Assembly (NCBI GenBank): GCA_902760645.1
Contig: CACWHC010000012.1
Location: 1 to 45,999, forward strand
DNA: 45,999 bases
Reading direction: 5' to 3'
Source of the DNA: an uncultured bacterium
Lineage (GTDB): Bacteria > Cyanobacteriota > Vampirovibrionia > Gastranaerophilales > Gastranaerophilaceae
Both the position numbers and the translations under genes were made by a program. Below, piece after piece: positions 6,345 through 45,853 of this stretch (its first letter is position 1; every line of letters begins with the position of its first letter). The notes under the pieces were generated by a model. That model ran no database searches and was not told the origin of the DNA. It saw nothing but the letters and a program-made list of their open reading frames with translations.

Positions 6345-7712
6345 TTAGTTATTTAAACTATGAATAGGTGCAGGAATTCTTCCCCCTCTTTCTACAAAAC
6401 CTGAGGAGGATATTGTATTTATCGGCATTATTGGGGCTTCGCCCAACAAACCGCCAAAATAAACCGTATCTCCGACTTTTTTCCCGATTGCAGGAATAAG
6501 CCGAACCGCAGTTGTTTTTTTATTTATCATGCCTATAGCCATCTCATCGGCGATTATACCTGCTATTGTAGAAACAGAAGTATCACCTGCGACAGCAACC
6601 ATATCGATGCCTACAGAACATACACAAGTCATTGCTTCTAATTTATCAAATTTTAAATATCCTTTTGATGCGGCTTCTATCATGCCTGCATCTTCTGAAA
6701 CCGGAATAAATGCCCCTGACAATCCGCCGACATGAGATGATGCCATAACACCGCCTTTTTTAACCGCATCATTCAACATTGCAAGAGCAGCTGTTGTACC
6801 GTGAGCCCCCGCATGTTCCAATCCCATAGCCTGAAAAATTCCGGCAACACTATCTCCGACTGCAGGAGTTGGTGCTAAAGATAAATCTACAACCCCAAAC
6901 GGGATACCAAGTCTTTGAGCAAGTTTTCTTCCGACAAGTTCGCCCGTAGAAGTTATTTTGAAAGCTGTTTGTTTTATTTTATTTGCTACTTCACTCAGGT
7001 CTGCATCTTTAGGTAAACTTTCTATTGCGGCTCTGACAACTCCCGGTCCTGAAACACCAACATTCAGTGTACATTCGGCTTCTCCATATCCGCAATAAGC
7101 CCCTGCCATAAAAGGATTATCCCCTACGGAATTACAAAAACAAACAAGCTTTGCTGCCCCGATACTGTCTTTATCCTTTGTAATTTCAGCAGATTTTTTT
7201 ATGATTTCAGCCATTTTTAAAACAGCATCCATATTTATTCCTGCCTTAGAACTTGCAAGGTTAATTGATGAACACAACCTTTCCGTACACGCTAACGCTT
7301 CCGGAATGCTTTCCATCAAAAGTTTATCACCTTTTGTGCAACCTTTTTCAACTAATGCCGAAAATCCGCCGATAAAATTTACGCCAACTTCCTTTGCTAC
7401 ATCATCAAGAGCTTTTGCAATTTTTACATAATCCGGATTTACACAGGCTTCACCTATCAACGAAATTGGTGTTACCGAAATCCTTTTATTAATAATAGGA
7501 ATTGAATAATCATTTTCTAAATCCTGTGCATATTCGACCAAATTTTTTGCATATTTTCTTATTTTTTGTTTTATATTTTCGCATAATACATCAACATCAG
7601 GATTTATGCAGTCACGCAAACTTATTGCAAGCGTTACCGTCCTTATATCAAGGTTGTGTAACTTGACCATGTTAATTGTTTCAAGTATAAAATTCTCATT
7701 AATTTCCGCCAA
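6345..7712 (-). CDS. UPF0210 / PFL family protein (DUF711)
   Basis: This 455-residue protein belongs to the PFL/UPF0210 family of unknown function, which shares a glycyl-radical-enzyme-like fold. The N-terminal [19 protein letters not shown] and the glycine-rich [22 protein letters not shown] are characteristic. It begins with TTG at 7712, inside the last codons of the ZorB-like gene (14-nt overlap). The next in-frame Met would remove the conserved N-terminus, so the TTG is favoured. The overlap implies coupling with the upstream channel genes. The usual neighbour of this family, a small ACT-domain protein, is not seen here. Confidence 0.85.
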
Positions 7713-8400
7713 AATTAAACCCGAGCATGTCAGCCAAACTCTGCCCTTTCACTTTTAACTTCAATTCTACACGCCTGCTTTTTGAAAAATCTTCCTTACC
7801 GTCACCCCCGATTACAGGTTCAGCAAAAGATTTTCCCTCAACCACCATCATGTTTCTCAAGGCTTTATTATATTTTTTATTATAACCCGTATGTAACAGC
7901 ATATAATCCTGAACCGCATAAGCACGCTGCAAACTCAGAAACATATTTTTTGAAAATTGTTCATTCGGAGTTTTTGCATCTCTGAATGTCTGAGAATCAG
8001 TATGACCCTGAACAATTATATTATCAATACTATGTCTGACAGATTCATTTTGAAATACTGTATCTAAATATATAGGAGTAAATTTATCGAGAAATTTTTT
8101 ACCTCTCGGTGATAATTGATAACTTCCTACATCAAAAAGTTCAACATCCGAAATTTTTACGTTACCGAACATATCAACTTCGGCATCAATTTTCTCAACT
8201 TTTAATTTTTCAGCAAGCTGCTCGGCAGTTTGCTGCTGTTGCTGCTGTTGTTTTAAACTTTCCTGAGTAAATCCGGTCATAGCAAGAATAAACAGTGTCA
8301 TAAAGACGATACAAAGACCTAACATCAAGTCCGACATTGTCGTCCAGAATATGTTATCAGTCCCTTCTTCTTTTAAACTCTTTTTCTTTAAAATTGCCAC
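7699..8400 (-). CDS. ZorB/MotB-like protein: one TM helix plus OmpA-type peptidoglycan-binding domain
   Basis: This 233-residue inner-membrane protein has one N-terminal TM segment (about residues 17-45). It contains [13 protein letters not shown] with Asp24 placed like the proton-carrying Asp of MotB and ZorB. A Gln-rich linker follows at residues 50-65, and then an OmpA-like domain with [10 protein letters not shown] and SRRVELKL that should bind peptidoglycan. It starts with GTG at 8400 (GGAG upstream), 16 bp after the ZorA-like gene, so the two probably form a proton-driven stator complex. The pair resembles ZorAB of the Zorya anti-phage system, but no ZorC, ZorD or ZorE gene is adjacent. 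A house-keeping TolQR/MotAB-like role is equally possible. Confidence 0.8.
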
Positions 8401-8416
8401 TGTTTTTCTCCGCTAA

Positions 8417-9322
8417 CTAAAATAAATCGTCCACATCATCTTTTTTGTTTGCAGCAATTGCTTCCTTAATATTTTTGTTATTCAAATTCATGCCATATAT
8501 TAAATTTTCCAAATACGGAACGAGATTACTTGCTATACCTGAATTAAGAGCAACTTTAAAGTTCTCCGGCAATTCTGTAATCAAATTCTGCAAAGCATTA
8601 TTTTGAATTTTGGTTTCTTTTAATAATTCAAGCAGGAATTTTTCTGAAGAAATATTATCGAATAGTTTTGAAATAGCACTTTGAGCCGCATAAAGAGGTT
8701 TTTTGCAGAGATTGTTATATGCGATTTTTTCAAAAATTATAAATATCAATGAACAAGATACCGCAACAACTGATACTAATGCTGCAGTCTGCATGGAGCC
8801 GATAAATCCTGATAATGAAGCAAGTGTTTTATCCTGAGATTCAAATGTTACTTTACCGAATGCCAATGCAATATTTAAGAAGGTAAACAACGGACCGCAA
8901 CCTGTTAAGATTGTTGATACCGATTGAATAAACTTATAATTAAATCTTGACGTTACAAGTGATTCTTCATCAAAGAAATACAACGGATCAACAGTTGTCT
9001 GAATGTACTGTATGGTAGAAGATACCTCCTGATACGTCAAATTGTTATTTTGACCTTTAAGAGCAATTGATTCCGAAAATACAAGAGTATTTTTAAATTC
9101 CAGCCAAGCACCCAACACATAAGGATTATGGGACATCCATTCGTCAATTTCCTTAAATCTGAAATTTAAGTCAGTTTTTTTAAAACTGCTAAAAAATGAC
9201 GCTAATAATTTTAAATTCTTATTTACAAAAGTATATTTATTGATTGTAAAAATTAAAGAACCTAAAAACAACGCAAATACGATATCAATAGGAATATCCT
9301 TAAATATATGCAAAAATCCCAT
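8417..9322 (-). CDS. ZorA/MotA/TolQ-like inner-membrane channel protein
   Basis: This is a 301-residue membrane protein with three predicted TM helices. One is near the N-terminus (DIVFALFLGSLIFTI); the others are a central pair, SVSTILTGCGPLFTFLNIALAFG and AALVSVVAVSCSLIFIIFEK. Three helices with a large cytoplasmic loop is the ZorA/TolQ/ExbB topology rather than the four-helix MotA one. About 85 residues follow the last helix, far shorter than the long tail of described ZorA proteins. I chose the ATG at 9322 because GGAGAG precedes it; an in-frame start at 9376 would add 18 residues that resemble nothing. It is the first gene of the ZorA/ZorB-like pair. Confidence 0.78.
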   Translation of the reverse strand: MGFLHIFKDIPIDIVFALFLGSLIFTINKYTFVNKNLKLLASFFSSFKKTDLNFRFKEIDEWMSHNPYVLGAWLEFKNTLVFSESIALKGQNNNLTYQEVSSTIQYIQTTVDPLYFFDEESLVTSRFNYKFIQSVSTILTGCGPLFTFLNIALAFGKVTFESQDKTLASLSGFIGSMQTAALVSVVAVSCSLIFIIFEKIAYNNLCKKPLYAAQSAISKLFDNISSEKFLLELLKETKIQNNALQNLITELPENFKVALNSGIASNLVPYLENLIYGMNLNNKNIKEAIAANKKDDVDDLF

Positions 9323-40631: not shown

Positions 40632-41405
40632 ATGACAGAGATTTGTAAAATGGATATAGAAAACAGCTTTAATAAATTAAAAGAAAGTGGTTGGCTTGAT
40701 GATAATTTTAATACAACAGTATTAGTAAATTTTATTATGGAATTAGATGATAATAATATAAGACCTGCAAAAGAAGATATTTTTAATGCTTTTAAAATAG
40801 GCAAGCCTGAAGATATTAGAGTTTTAATTATAGGACAAGACCCATATCCTGATAAAGAAAAAGCTCATGGATATGCTTTTTCCGTTAAGGCTCCAAAAAA
40901 GCGAGCTGCATCCTTAACAAAGATTTTTAACGCAATTGATATATACTGTAAGAAAACCAATAAAAGTATTAATTCAAACCATAGCTATAATCTTGAACAG
41001 TGGGCTAATAAGAGTAAAGTTTTGTTATTGAATTCAGCTTTGACATATGAAAAATCAAAATGTTTTGAGGGAAAATATAAATATAAAAAAGAATTAAACG
41101 AAGATGACTTGAAAAAACTTGAAAAAGCACAACAAGAATTACAAAAAACACATATGGAAATGTGGGAACCTTTTACAATAAATATTATGGAAAATCTATT
41201 TAATAAAAACAAGAATGTTGTAGTATTTTTATGGGGAGATAAAGCTAAAAGATTATTCAATAAATGTAATTACAAGGAAAATATAAAAAATTATGCATCA
41301 TGTCATCCAAGAAAACGTTATAAAGGGGAAAATGATAAGTTTAAAAAAGAGGTATCATCTCATTTTACAGACAGCAGTCTAGACGATGTTTGGCAGGATT
41401 TATAA
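40632..41405 (+). CDS. divergent uracil-DNA glycosylase (UNG superfamily)
   Basis: The 257-residue protein carries a UDG motif 1, GQDPYP (69-73 region; catalytic-type Asp70, Tyr72), followed by AHGYAFSV as in family 1 UNG. The usual His after GQDPY is Pro73. The second motif HPSPL is replaced by SCHPRKRYKG, in which the His is kept. The core LLLNSALT is present. It could excise uracil or another deaminated base, or bind DNA without catalysis. A 40-residue Lys-rich insertion (KYKYKKELNEDDLKKLEKAQQ) sits between the motifs. GGAGAGAG precedes the ATG. It stands next to repeat copy A, at the edge of the accessory region, and may be phage-derived. Confidence 0.75.
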   Translation: MTEICKMDIENSFNKLKESGWLDDNFNTTVLVNFIMELDDNNIRPAKEDIFNAFKIGKPEDIRVLIIGQDPYPDKEKAHGYAFSVKAPKKRAASLTKIFNAIDIYCKKTNKSINSNHSYNLEQWANKSKVLLLNSALTYEKSKCFEGKYKYKKELNEDDLKKLEKAQQELQKTHMEMWEPFTINIMENLFNKNKNVVVFLWGDKAKRLFNKCNYKENIKNYASCHPRKRYKGENDKFKKEVSSHFTDSSLDDVWQDL

Positions 41406-41407
41406 TC

Positions 41408-41443
41408 TGAAACTCCTTGTCCCCCAGTTAAAACGATGAAAGC
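41408..41443 (-). repeat. dispersed ~34-bp repeat, copy A
   Basis: Reading along the plus strand just after the glycosylase stop codon: TGAAACTCC, then TTGTCCCCCAGTTAAAACGA, then TGAAAGC. It is the inverse of copies B and C. Its core differs from copy B by one base (GTT versus GTC), and copy C differs by a few. It lies 2 bp after the stop at 41405 and right before the promoter at 41446. Confidence 0.8.
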
Positions 41444-41445
41444 GT

Positions 41446-41474
41446 TTGGGAGATTTTTAAAAACTGTTTATAAT
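41446..41474 (+). promoter_or_regulatory. sigma70-type promoter of the 54-aa gene
   Basis: TTGGGA (41446-41451), a 17-nt spacer and TATAAT (41469-41474), immediately inside repeat copy A. Confidence 0.65.
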
Positions 41475-41506
41475 GCAAATGGTACAAGAATTGAAAGGAG
41501 ACCATT

Positions 41507-41671
41507 ATGCAACAGTATGAGTACGATTGTTTTGTCAGATTAGAGAATGATAAATATGCTCCGCAGAAGCATATTACTATTATTGCCAGCAATGCTCACG
41601 AGGCAAAAAGTATAGCCGAGGCACAAGGTTACAGAGTGTATCATGTTCAATCAAAGGGAAGGGCAGATTAA
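41507..41671 (+). CDS. small hypothetical protein, 54 aa
   Basis: The protein starts MQQYEYDCFVRLENDKYAPQ and ends SKGRAD. It is mixed strand/helix (HITIIASNAHEAKSIAEAQGYRVYHVQ) and resembles small proteins with a single ACT-like or ubiquitin-like turn, but I do not recognise it. It has a full promoter, a GAAAGGAG ribosome binding site (41493-41500) and a terminator, so it is a real gene although very short. It is convergent with the FtsZ-like operon and the only plus-strand gene inside the A-B inverted repeats. Confidence 0.75.
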   Translation: MQQYEYDCFVRLENDKYAPQKHITIIASNAHEAKSIAEAQGYRVYHVQSKGRAD

Positions 41672-41697
41672 CAAACAACAAAATAAAGATTAAGCAA

Positions 41698-41722
41698 AAG
41701 GTCGGATAAATAATCCGACCTT
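41698..41722. terminator. bidirectional terminator-like hairpin
   Basis: AAGGTCGGAT (41698-41707) pairs with ATCCGACCTT (41713-41722) around AAATA. It separates the convergent 54-aa gene and the 73-aa gene. Confidence 0.8.
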
Positions 41723-41785
41723 AGATTTATAACTTTTTAATTTTCTACAGAGCCAATATAGAAATAAGTTTCATAGCAGTTCGTT

Positions 41786-42007
41786 TTACTCGTTATCGGA
41801 TGTTACGGCTGCTTTAATATCATCTAATTGATTTCTTATATCATATAAACTGTTATTAAGGACTTTAACTTTGATAAAATCTATAACTGTTTCAATAGGT
41901 ATATTTGTTTCCTCTGATATTTCTTTTAATTTGCATAATTCTTTTTTTGCTGCCTCCCAAGGTTCACCTTTATAATATTCTTCAAAATAATAAAACATAT
42001 CACGCAT
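41786..42007 (-). CDS. small hypothetical protein, 73 aa
   Basis: This acidic, helical protein (MRDMFYYFEEYYKGEPWEAAKKEL, then a possible HTH-like ISEETNIPIETVIDFIKVK) is the last gene of the FtsZ-like operon. I do not recognise it. An AGGCAGG-type ribosome binding site precedes the ATG at 42007. The helical middle could bind DNA or a partner, but no function can be claimed. It lies 74 bp after the DnaB-WG gene. Confidence 0.65.
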   Translation of the reverse strand: MRDMFYYFEEYYKGEPWEAAKKELCKLKEISEETNIPIETVIDFIKVKVLNNSLYDIRNQLDDIKAAVTSDNE

Positions 42008-42081
42008 TTTTACCTGCCTTTCTTTATATTTGTCATTTTATACTATTTATTAAATCTAATCTTCCTCTATCTATTGTAATT

Positions 42082-43353
42082 CTATACCTCAATAGTATAG
42101 CTATCTCTATCAAAAAAGTTAATTTGTTTTTCCAGAATTTTTGCAATATTGTTTATGTTTATTTTTAACTGGTTAAAGGCTTTATCAACCAAGCCATACT
42201 TGCCATTGATTTCAACTATTCGCCAATTAGAATTTATGCTATGTTCAATATTTTCTATAAAATCAGGCGTGCAAATTAGTTTATCTTCAGTTTCTGCATC
42301 AATAATGTTTTCATGCCTGTCTATCAGGTATTCCTTATCATTTACTTTGACAAACATATAATTAAAGTTCTTATCTGCTCTTTCCAATTTTGAATATTTT
42401 GGCTCAATAATTATAGTTCCTTGCCTATCGACTACACCCCATTTTTTATTTTTGCGGAATTTGAAATATTGAAAATTTTTATCAAGAGTTTTGAAATCAC
42501 TGTATTTAAATCCTGATATAACATTAAAATCATTATCAATAAGACCTTCCTTATTATTTACTTTTGCTATTAACAGGTTATCATTTATTCTACGCAGATT
42601 TTGGCATTTTATTTTATATAAAATATTGCCTTTAGTATCTGCTTCAATCCAGTAATCATAATATTTAGCAGTAAATGAATTTTTATTGACTGATGATATT
42701 TGATTAAAAATAAAAACATTTTCTTCTATGTTTTTAAATGTGTGCTTTTCCTTATCATATAAAAGATTTACCGTATCCGTTTTACCATCCTGATTTTTAG
42801 CGACAATTATTTCTACGGTTCCGTTTCTTTCAGGATTAGATAAATCATAATAATCTTCTCGGTAAAGGAATAAGATTTTATCAGGAATTTCATTCATAGA
42901 TGAATAATTTAAATCTGTAATTATAGGATGTTTATCATCTCTCTTTTCAACACTTTTTGAAAGTTGAGAAAGCACAACAACAGGAATATTTAATTCGACA
43001 GCTAAATTTTTTAATCCCGTTAAAATCTGACGAAGGTTTTCTTTTTTGTTTAGTAATTTGCTACATTTAATATGCTCCAAATCGTCTATTATAAGTAAAT
43101 CAAGACTAAAGGGTATCAAATACCATAACTTCCATTCTTCTTCTATGTCTTCACGTTGAGGAAGTGTTTCATTAATGTATAAAAGCGAGTATTTTTTTGA
43201 ATATTCTCTAATATTTCTTGCTATATCCATGGCAAAAGCAGTTTTACCCATAGCGGGACGTCCGGCTATTAAAATCAGTTCACCTCTTTTAAATCCGCCT
43301 GTTAATTTATCCAATTCAGTAAACCCTGTGTATATTGTTTCATCGTTTTTCAT
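42082..43353 (-). CDS. DnaB-type RecA-fold ATPase fused to WG repeats
   Basis: The first ~215 residues are the C-terminal domain of DnaB-type replicative helicases without the primase-binding N-domain. It has Walker A GRPAMGKT (31-38), Walker B LLIIDD, VVLSQLSKSVEKRDDKHP and KILFLYREDYY. About 65 residues normally found between the catalytic Glu and Walker B are missing. The remaining ~200 residues are WG-like repeats (KKWGVVDRQGTIIIEPKYSKL, GKYGLVDKAFN and related copies), a repeat class usually seen as surface or protein-binding folds. A DnaB-WG fusion is unknown to me. It lies 3 bp after the HTH gene with AAAGGG before its ATG. Confidence 0.85.
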   Translation of the reverse strand: MKNDETIYTGFTELDKLTGGFKRGELILIAGRPAMGKTAFAMDIARNIREYSKKYSLLYINETLPQREDIEEEWKLWYLIPFSLDLLIIDDLEHIKCSKLLNKKENLRQILTGLKNLAVELNIPVVVLSQLSKSVEKRDDKHPIITDLNYSSMNEIPDKILFLYREDYYDLSNPERNGTVEIIVAKNQDGKTDTVNLLYDKEKHTFKNIEENVFIFNQISSVNKNSFTAKYYDYWIEADTKGNILYKIKCQNLRRINDNLLIAKVNNKEGLIDNDFNVISGFKYSDFKTLDKNFQYFKFRKNKKWGVVDRQGTIIIEPKYSKLERADKNFNYMFVKVNDKEYLIDRHENIIDAETEDKLICTPDFIENIEHSINSNWRIVEINGKYGLVDKAFNQLKININNIAKILEKQINFFDRDSYTIEV

Positions 43354-43356
43354 ATT

Positions 43357-43824
43357 TTAACCCTTTCTTGCATAATCTTCACCATCAAAAAGGGTGCTTA
43401 TTTCAAACTTTTCCCCAGTTGCTAAATTTTTTACGGTTAAAAATTTGTATATGTTGTAAAAATCTTCATCAAATATCAATTCGTATTCACAATTATCAGG
43501 TGCTGTTTCAAAAAATTCAGATAATCTTTGAACATCCTGCTTCGTTATTTTGATTTTATTAACAAGGGTATAAACCTCTTTGTTACCATCAACTTTTTCA
43601 TACGTGTAATATGGAATTTCATCTTGTGAAAACACTTCAACTTTTTTCATATTTGCAACATCTATCAATTCCCATTTGTCTTTTACTCCGTACTTTTTGC
43701 AAAGGGAGCCGATTCTTGGGTCGTTTGTGTATATTTGTATTCCGAATTTTTCTTTTATTTTTTTCGAATTTAATCCCATTTTTATCCCACATAAAATTTT
43801 AAATTCATCTTCTGTCAGATACAT
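43357..43824 (-). CDS. LuxR-like helix-turn-helix protein
   Basis: The 155-residue protein begins with a region like the LuxR/GerE helix-turn-helix (residues 4-58: EDEFKILCGIKMGLNSKKIKEKFG...RIGSLCKKYGVKDKWELI). A ~90-residue strand-rich C-domain (EVFSQDEIPYYTYEKVDGNKE...) that I do not recognise follows. I chose the ATG at 43824, preceded by GAGGTAGCT; an in-frame start at 43875 would add residues with no match. It overlaps the end of the FtsZ-like gene by 20 nt and lies 3 bp before the DnaB-WG gene, which indicates co-translation and a possible role as operon regulator. Confidence 0.65.
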   Translation of the reverse strand: MYLTEDEFKILCGIKMGLNSKKIKEKFGIQIYTNDPRIGSLCKKYGVKDKWELIDVANMKKVEVFSQDEIPYYTYEKVDGNKEVYTLVNKIKITKQDVQRLSEFFETAPDNCEYELIFDEDFYNIYKFLTVKNLATGEKFEISTLFDGEDYARKG

Positions 43825-44494
43825 AGCTACCTCTAGTTCTAAGCAATATTCGAGTATAAAATAGTTCACCAACATTATCGAATAAATCTCTTATTGTGAT
43901 GTTATTAGCATTGTCTTGCATAAATTGTTCGTTATTTATAATATCGTAATCTTCAACATATTTTTTCAATTCATTAACACCGCTTTTTCCTGCATTCATA
44001 CGAATTTGACCTTCAAATGGAAAAGGAATTGTGACAATTGCAGAATTTTTTAGACCTGAAGTTTTTAAATATTTTGCAATAACAGGAGTAGCTCCGGTAC
44101 CAAAACCTCCACCGAATGTTGATATTAAAATGACCTTATCAGAATCAGCAAACCCTGAAAGTTTAGCTATTTTTTCAATATGTTTTTCCGCTAAATATCG
44201 ACCTCTGTTTACATTTCCTCCGCAACCCAAACTTTGTTTTATTGCAAAAATTTTATCAGTTAAGAACTTTAGAAGCACTAAAACCTTATTTTGGGGTAAT
44301 ATAGTGGCATTATTATCAGTAACTAAGATTGCTTTAGTTTTTGCCAAATGTAGAATTTGTTCATCAGAATTTATCGAAATTAAATTTACATTATGCATTC
44401 TGTTATGAAGATAGTTTACTATATTTTGTCCTCCACCTCCTATTCCAATTATTGTAATTTGTTTTTGATTTTTGTTTTTAAAATTTTTAATCAT
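43805..44494 (-). CDS. truncated FtsZ-like protein (GTP-binding domain only)
   Basis: The 229-residue protein aligns with the N-terminal GTPase domain of FtsZ: nucleotide loop GIGGGGQN (17-24), INSDEQ, SLGCGGNVNRGRYLAEK, the tubulin signature GGGFGTG (128-134; FtsZ has GGGTGTG) and GVNELKKYVEDYDIINNEQF matching the PNDRL helix. It ends at the position before the T7 loop, so the whole C-terminal domain with the catalytic Asp is missing. It could bind GTP but not complete the inter-subunit active site. The ATG at 44494 is preceded by AAAGGT; a GTG at 44518 would add eight residues. It is the first gene of a four-gene operon. Confidence 0.85.
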   Translation of the reverse strand: MIKNFKNKNQKQITIIGIGGGGQNIVNYLHNRMHNVNLISINSDEQILHLAKTKAILVTDNNATILPQNKVLVLLKFLTDKIFAIKQSLGCGGNVNRGRYLAEKHIEKIAKLSGFADSDKVILISTFGGGFGTGATPVIAKYLKTSGLKNSAIVTIPFPFEGQIRMNAGKSGVNELKKYVEDYDIINNEQFMQDNANNITIRDLFDNVGELFYTRILLRTRGSYVSDRR

Positions 44495-44560
44495 TATTAT
44501 ACCTTTCACATTTATCACTTATTTTTTATTTTAAATCTTTTGCAATAATTTCGCATTCAA

Positions 44561-44603: not shown

Positions 44604-45287
44604 TCAAACAATTACGGTTAAGTCGTCATTAATTTGCTTAATTGGAATTAATTCCGGCTTTTCAATAAAAGCATTTATTTGAGCATTATTAAAACCGCTT
44701 GGATGTGTCGGGGTCATATCTTTATTGATACTAAACGCATATATCTTATCCTTAAAAGATGTGTTTATTGTTTGGCTGTATTTGTTAAAACTGTTGATAT
44801 TTTTATCAGCCCCCCATGCAGCTAAGAAAATCGTATTTTCTTTATCACAATGTTTTAAAAATCCATTAACAAACATTTCGTTATATCTTTGCTTTTGTTT
44901 ATTCAAGCTCTTTAAAGCAAGTTCTTTTTTACTGTTTATTACAGGTATTGTGTTTAATACAATTACTGACATAATGCCGAGTGCTTTTGCAATTTTCATA
45001 ACATTCAGTACGGTATCATCTATGTTCGAATTATCGTTTTCACAAGGAAAAGTTTCCGAAGGATTCATTAAAAGTGTAATCAATGTTTTATCGTTATCAA
45101 TGCCACAATGATTTAGCTCCAAACAATAACGATTATCATTTATATCAGGATTTGGAGAATCATATATTCCAAATCCCCATATATTATTTTCACTCCCGAC
45201 AATATTTTTGTCCTTTAAAATAACTCGCCAATAAACTTTTTCACGAATAAATGCTGTCGTCATATCCAATAATTTTTCTACACTCAT
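44604..45287 (-). CDS. DUF1643 family protein
   Basis: The 227-residue protein matches DUF1643: LITLLMNPSETFP near residue 70, IDDTVLNVMKIAKALG, VLNTIPV and a later IFLAAWGADKNI. The function of the family is unknown; its members often occur in phages and mobile elements. A GGAGG ribosome binding site precedes the ATG at 45287, and a -10-like TATACT lies about 20 nt upstream. Repeat copies C and B lie on its two sides, which suggests that the gene came with them as one module. Confidence 0.82.
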   Translation of the reverse strand: MSVEKLLDMTTAFIREKVYWRVILKDKNIVGSENNIWGFGIYDSPNPDINDNRYCLELNHCGIDNDKTLITLLMNPSETFPCENDNSNIDDTVLNVMKIAKALGIMSVIVLNTIPVINSKKELALKSLNKQKQRYNEMFVNGFLKHCDKENTIFLAAWGADKNINSFNKYSQTINTSFKDKIYAFSINKDMTPTHPSGFNNAQINAFIEKPELIPIKQINDDLTVIV

Positions 45288-45538: not shown

Positions 45539-45853
45539 TTACAGCACTTTGTACCATCCGAATAATGGTTCAGATACGTATTTTTCAACCTGTTCTTTAA
45601 ATATTTTACTTGGTATAAACACAGGAATTGTAGTTTCAGGAAGTCGAATAACTTTGTTTTCATTAATAATTCTTGCAGTTCTGGACGCACGATGCTGAAG
45701 TTTAAAAACCCCAAAACCTTGCAACGTAACCTTTTCCCCTTTTGAAACCGTTTTTTCAATTGTATCAATTAAAGCATTTATAATTTTCTTTGCATCAACC
45801 TGTGTAACTCTTACTTTAGCCGCAAGTTCTTGCACTATTTCTTCTTTGTTCAT
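45539..45853 (-). CDS. hup: HU/IHF-family DNA-binding protein
   Basis: This 104-residue HU-like protein bends and compacts DNA as a dimer. The N-terminus (MNKEEIVQELAAKVRVTQVDAKKIINAL) and VTLQGFGVFKLQHRASRTARI are typical. After IRLPETTIPVFIPSKIFKEQV there is a short extra C-terminal tail (SEPLFGWYKVL). A TATAAT about 20 nt upstream and a GGTGA ribosome binding site precede the ATG at 45853. It may be chromosomal HU, or belong to the neighbouring accessory unit. Confidence 0.92.
   Translation of the reverse strand: MNKEEIVQELAAKVRVTQVDAKKIINALIDTIEKTVSKGEKVTLQGFGVFKLQHRASRTARIINENKVIRLPETTIPVFIPSKIFKEQVEKYVSEPLFGWYKVL

Follow-up and report, generated by a model that had tools for sequence, protein, structure and literature searches.

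A horizontally mobile FtsZ N-terminal domain cut ahead of the T7 loop and its possible role as a filament-end cap

FtsZ is a two-domain machine whose GTPase arises only between subunits: each GTP pocket in the filament is completed by a T7 loop that the adjoining subunit supplies, and in this composite active site D46, Q48 and R143 belong to the receiving half and N208, D210 and D213 to the other side (PMC8936486). Within the window, the whole 45,999-nucleotide stretch of contig CACWHC010000012.1 that was analysed, lies a gene, here called Z1, whose product appears to hold the receiving half only. This raises the question of whether Z1 is a damaged ftsZ or a selected protein and, if selected, what a subunit that has no T7 loop could do. 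An earlier note on this DNA had suggested that such a subunit might still bind GTP, dock on one filament end and so cap or poison host FtsZ.

The longest possible Z1 frame, 43805-44518, opens with GTG. The ATG at 44494, with an AAAGG ribosome-binding-like sequence just upstream, is the likely start and gives 229 aa on the minus strand down to the stop at 43805. Beyond that stop no C-terminal domain was found in any frame, in agreement with the earlier description of the protein as lacking this domain, and the next ORF, which overlaps the 3' end of Z1 by 20 bp, is unrelated to FtsZ. The genomes compared are draft or metagenome assemblies; an ORF of the same 229-aa length is present in two other MAGs, UBA2855 (99% identity) and UBA3301 (92% identity), and the three pairwise comparisons across the three assemblies gave dN/dS values of approximately 0.20, 0.31 and 0.29, indicating purifying selection. 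A sequencing frameshift was rejected for two reasons: first, the same ORF occurs in three assemblies and second, there is no C-terminal domain downstream to be restored. Given that the same 229-aa ORF is under purifying selection in two other MAGs, Z1 reflects neither a frameshift nor decay; it is maintained by selection.

Z1 matches the Pfam Tubulin model (PF00091) at 3.2e-23 with the whole model covered, while competing Rossmann families scored 0.008 or worse, each under its own Pfam cut-off, and another Rossmann family was rejected on the Pfam and structure comparisons. The two outcomes that the earlier note had named as fatal to its reading, a frameshift and a better match to another Rossmann family, were thus both looked for and neither occurred. 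Nearly every PDB chain that Z1 matches in sequence is an FtsZ (best 3e-24), and the score against the NCBIfam FtsZ equivalog TIGR00065, 127.3 bits, lies below the cut-off of 295.2. The nucleotide loop GIGGGGQN and the signature GGGFGTG, which marks a GTP-binding tubulin domain, are both present as first read; the PNDRL-like helix listed with them is partly kept, as NNEQF, and does not carry the full motif. AlphaFold2 was given sequences from the window and related loci only, so the alignment was shallow (6 rows); the N-domain was nevertheless modelled with confidence and helix H7 as complete, with low confidence at residues 1-8, 70-91 and 222-229, the latter two at pLDDT <50. The top structural match of the model is FtsZ 1w5f (Z 28.5, VIA-align), the FtsZ N-domain fold that was to be looked for, and the match to S. 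aureus FtsZ 7ohk spans residues 9-207, where the T7 loop starts at N208. The catalytic T7 residues N208, D210 and D213 and the GTPase-activating C-terminal domain are missing. Z1 is an FtsZ N-domain plus H7, cut exactly ahead of the T7 loop, and the alignment with host FtsZ likewise places the stop at the H7/T7 boundary, bearing out the earlier claim. Host FtsZ lies outside the window, as had also been stated; it is a 407-aa frame on another contig (G000 C1; G000 is the window's genome).

Comparison of Z1 with host FtsZ shows 67% identity in the motif columns and 20% in the remaining columns. On the nucleotide face N25, N44, D46, Q48, G72, E139, R143 and N166 are kept, so that all of N44, D46, Q48, G72 and R143, the face that receives the T7 loop, is intact. 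The position of D187, a guanine contact in FtsZ, is occupied by Gly. A hydrophobic and cationic insert (Table 1), modelled as a helix at 75-88 with pLDDT <50, shares its position but not its sequence with the related loci L034 and L035; it adjoins the docking face and could block docking.

Z1 is not alone. A protein search followed by profile searches in genomes of the same taxonomic family (383 in the larger search) recovered approximately 35 short FtsZ-like genes of 160-310 aa in 28 of the 383, a count based on frames shorter than ~320 aa, with full-length FtsZ sitting elsewhere; no intact short FtsZ was found among 79 genomes of the same class outside the family (Fisher p 0.008). On the host FtsZ sequence the last residue of most short members falls at positions 218-223, at the start of the T7 loop PGMINVDFADV. 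With the longest branches removed, the tree separates 25 T7-less proteins by a branch of 99% support from full FtsZ and from those short forms that carry T7, and only one alignable T7-less protein falls outside this group of 25. Holding all 26 T7-less proteins together was not rejected (p 0.51), and L093 may be a separate truncation. Two subfamilies can be distinguished. In one, to which the window protein belongs together with L034, L035, L038, L039 and others, most or all of the residues offered to the neighbour's T7 loop are retained, whereas a 180-aa group has lost Q48, N44 and N166, carries GGGTSCG as its signature and keeps D46, E139 and R143; because of these losses, not all members can dock in the manner of FtsZ. 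Members of the 180-aa group (L036 14446-14988; relatives L079, L082, L083, L084 and L085) sit beside DUF2924, a small WG protein and a large serine recombinase, with WYL, UvrD-PDDEXK and RtcB-like genes nearby. Genomes of genus g7 (G255, G007, G183 and others) regularly carry two full-length FtsZ genes each. No published T7-less or N-domain-only FtsZ family was found in the open-access literature.

The gene also travels. Z1 is 99% identical between G000 and G170, where the chromosomal ftsZ is only 82% identical, and between G000 and G255, which belongs to another genus, it differs at 36 of 687 bases (~95% DNA identity) against 78% identity for ftsZ. Elsewhere in the family, G151 and G029, which are of different genera, share 8.5 kb at 98.5% identity, and two short FtsZ genes lie in this stretch. 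Z1 moves horizontally between genomes. Serine and tyrosine recombinases occur near the half-FtsZ genes and tRNA genes are close, and the best explanation for the family is that it is cargo of integrative mobile elements in gut Melainabacteria-type Cyanobacteriota. Possible element ends include a 27-bp repeat at tRNA-His in G255, with its copies spaced by just 220 bp, and a 168-bp repeat (94%) from the end of tRNA-Ser in G050 (L034 3540-3706), the latter possibly an attachment-site duplication. A phage origin of Z1 was considered and rejected: scans of IMG/VR, one of them profile-based, found no relative, and among 14 phage-record matches the five unannotated ones examined, and one of those annotated, hold full-length ftsZ. 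The plasmid matches listed are ~30% identical, and the annotated ones are ftsZ.

In the window Z1 stands in an operon-like row, DUF1643 - Z1 - HTH-like - DnaB/WG (Table 1). Two relatives and one distant locus also keep the HTH-like gene beside Z1; the AlphaFold2 model of its product (mean pLDDT 44) was too poor for use. The DnaB-WG protein is the only WG-repeat protein found in a search of the G000 genome. Its DnaB-C part is matched in two separate stretches and seems to be without an internal piece relative to DnaB. The element of G255 carries WG repeats without a DnaB part; relatives of this WG protein adjoin Z in G108, G151 and G146 and are missing from five genomes of the same genus that have no Z. 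The earlier suggestion to look for T7-less homologues next to DnaB-WG genes fits the window itself, but the conserved partner is the WG-repeat part, and the DnaB part is missing in other elements. An MmeI-like type II restriction-modification protein of 927 aa is encoded on the same contig (window 1607-4390).

Table 1. Features of the window around Z1 (positions are those of the window)
Feature	Position	Strand	Basis
Z1, stand-alone FtsZ N-terminal (GTP-binding) domain plus helix H7, 229 aa	43805..44494	minus	Pfam, AF2, VIA-align, dN/dS
Lineage-specific insert of ~25 residues (Z1 residues ~65-89, limits approximate), between strand S3 and the T3 loop	44228..44302	minus	alignments, hydrophobic moment, AF2
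155-aa protein, LuxR-type HTH-like by eye; overlaps the end of Z1 by 20 bp	43357..43824	minus	
DnaB-C ATPase fused to WG repeats	42082..43353	minus	Pfam DnaB_C 2.6e-47, WG 2.2e-12
DUF1643 protein upstream of Z1	44604..45287	minus	Pfam 8e-13; neighbour cluster c3 in 13 loci
HU-like DNA-binding protein, also in the two related elements	45539..45853	minus	Pfam 1.5e-23; cluster c18
Uracil-DNA-glycosylase-like gene, convergent, also in related elements	40632..41405	plus	Pfam UDG 7.9e-10; cluster c12
Site of Z2 in related elements, Z2 absent here	41406..42081	minus	alignment, three-frame reading

The two closest relatives carry a second FtsZ-like gene, Z2, after this row. The Z2 of G170 includes the T7 loop, and a late frameshift puts the continuation of its C-terminal domain in another frame; the Z2 of G255 stops just past the T7 region. 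Positions 41406-41768 of the window align at 95.9% with sequence just past Z2 of the UBA3301 element, and a three-frame reading of the minus strand found no FtsZ at the site of Z2. Given that Z2 is frameshifted in G170, shortened in G255 and gone in the window, the T7-less gene outlasts a T7-bearing neighbour that is decaying. The WG-repeat protein is a steadier partner of Z1 than Z2. Around other half-FtsZ loci there are WYL regulators, UvrD-PDDEXK helicase-nucleases, AAA ATPases, a dGTPase-like HD protein, a metallophosphatase and, as judged by eye, RtcB. In G170 the GajA and GajB genes of Gabija (PADLOC 3e-247 and 7e-269; L043 11143-15194) lie upstream of the half-FtsZ module on the same contig, with a PDC-S01 candidate defence protein beside them. 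PADLOC models gave no match to the Z1 protein itself, and it is from the gene neighbourhood that a defence role for Z1 is inferred.

The reading that we favour, at a probability of roughly 0.4 and therefore tentatively, is that Z1 is a mobile half-FtsZ which would dock by its nucleotide face and act as a reversible terminal cap that restrains division. Judged from its residues, capping or poisoning of FtsZ by GTP-bound docking on a filament end is plausible. Because the N and C domains of FtsZ fold independently of each other (PMC7327170), an N-domain on its own is physically reasonable. Incoming subunits are argued to join the filament at its T7-exposing end through their GTP-bound top face, and mutants of the bottom (T7) face are cited as toxic where those of the top face are not (PMC8936486); by analogy Z1 could be the extreme of a bottom-face mutant, able to bind and block the growing end. 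Z1 would bind GTP or a related nucleotide, and its nucleotide face would attach to a complete FtsZ-type subunit where the T7/C-terminal face of that subunit is exposed. This subunit may be host FtsZ or the second FtsZ of the element, since some relatives are paired with a T7-bearing partner. With no T7 face of its own, nothing would add behind Z1, which would make it a terminal, end-binding subunit; the T7 loop on which it docked could complete the GTPase site of Z1 and release it, giving a timed cap. The WG-repeat and HTH-like partners probably set when Z1 is active, and the most likely use would be division restraint as a defence or element-maintenance response. For a cap speak the residues that meet the neighbour's T7 loop, all intact on the nucleotide face of Z1; against a simple cap speak the loss of D187, the insert beside the T3 loop and the T7-bearing partners of some relatives, which mean that host FtsZ need not be the target. 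The boldest version, in which half-FtsZ proteins would be a new kind of mobile-element effector whose GTP-loaded domains cap the T7-exposing end of host filaments, with WG partners timing a division stop during phage attack or element transfer, we regard as rather unlikely.

The pairing with T7-bearing genes raises the possibility that the T7-less protein forms a heteromer with an element-encoded FtsZ-like partner supplying the T7 loop, together with the WG protein, and has no dealings with host FtsZ. In several elements there is a pair of FtsZ-like genes, in some cases with an 8-bp overlap, and partners with a T7 region are provided by Z2 of G170, Z2 of G255 and L039. In the last (G012) a 198-aa T7-less FtsZ N-domain (7319-7915) overlaps a 278-aa FtsZ (7908-8744) that has the T7 loop and C-terminal domain and from which the nucleotide pocket is deleted, which looks from the sequence like a split, complementary pair. 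Nevertheless, Z1 is intact in the window where Z2 is gone, the surviving Z2 copies are frameshifted or cut short, and most T7-less genes have no T7-bearing partner nearby, so that this reading is doubtful. A role outside filament biology, in which GTP or another nucleotide would be the signal by which Z1 switches WG or nuclease partners, fits both the varying base contacts (D187 lost in the window lineage, N166 in the 180-aa subfamily) and the varying partners (WG, UvrD-PDDEXK, dGTPase-like HD, AAA, metallophosphatase); it is unlikely, as Z1 also keeps Q48, D46 and R143, which serve the contact with a neighbour's T7 loop.

A decoy or guard that senses or absorbs FtsZ-directed phage proteins would suit the defence-type neighbours and has a precedent for FtsZ as part of a phage sensor, CapRel-Ebc, which senses the Gp0.4-FtsZ complex (PMC13423816). 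In the model, however, Gp0.4 sits against the synergy-loop face of FtsZ, and because this binding face is missing from Z1 a decoy for the known FtsZ inhibitors is very unlikely; Z1 could possibly serve instead as a shield covering that face on host FtsZ. Finally, that Z1 is a decaying, functionless fragment of an acquired ftsZ, as its low G+C (29% against 34% for the rest of the window) and the true decay of the neighbouring Z2 in relatives might suggest, is most improbable given its equal length in three assemblies, its dN/dS of 0.20-0.31 and the fact that divergent relatives stop at the same point.

A selected mobile family that keeps the receiving half of FtsZ is a natural test of which half suffices for binding and of which end grows. 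If the cap is real, Z1 would be a division inhibitor built from its own target, in a lineage whose division control has hardly been studied; if Z1 works with its own partner, it would be part of a split FtsZ system.

Among known systems, Z1 resembles FtsZ (TIGR00065) in its N-terminal GTP-binding domain, motifs T1-T6 and helix H7, but differs in having no T7 loop, GTPase-activating domain or C-terminal tail, and in its D187 change, its insert ahead of T3 and its location on a mobile element. With TubZ/RepX and PhuZ it shares a tubulin-superfamily GTPase domain carried on mobile DNA; these, however, are full-length filament formers, and relative to PhuZ the PHROG match of Z1 is weak (0.001 over residues 10-147) and the C-terminal part is absent. 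FtsZl1 is likewise an FtsZ-like family with no identifiable classical C-terminal domain (Makarova and Koonin 2010, PMC2875224), but its members combine a coiled coil with a helical C-terminal domain, and elements T6-H7 could not be recognised in them (PMC2875224), whereas in the Z1 family T6-H7 is retained, no further domain is attached and PF00091 is matched directly, with Pfam Tubulin_2 absent among the Z1 matches at E up to 0.1. The site proposed for Z1, the T7/synergy-loop face of FtsZ, is that of SulA, MciZ and phage Gp0.4; their folds are unrelated to it, and Z1 would differ from them as a candidate inhibitor made from a piece of FtsZ itself.
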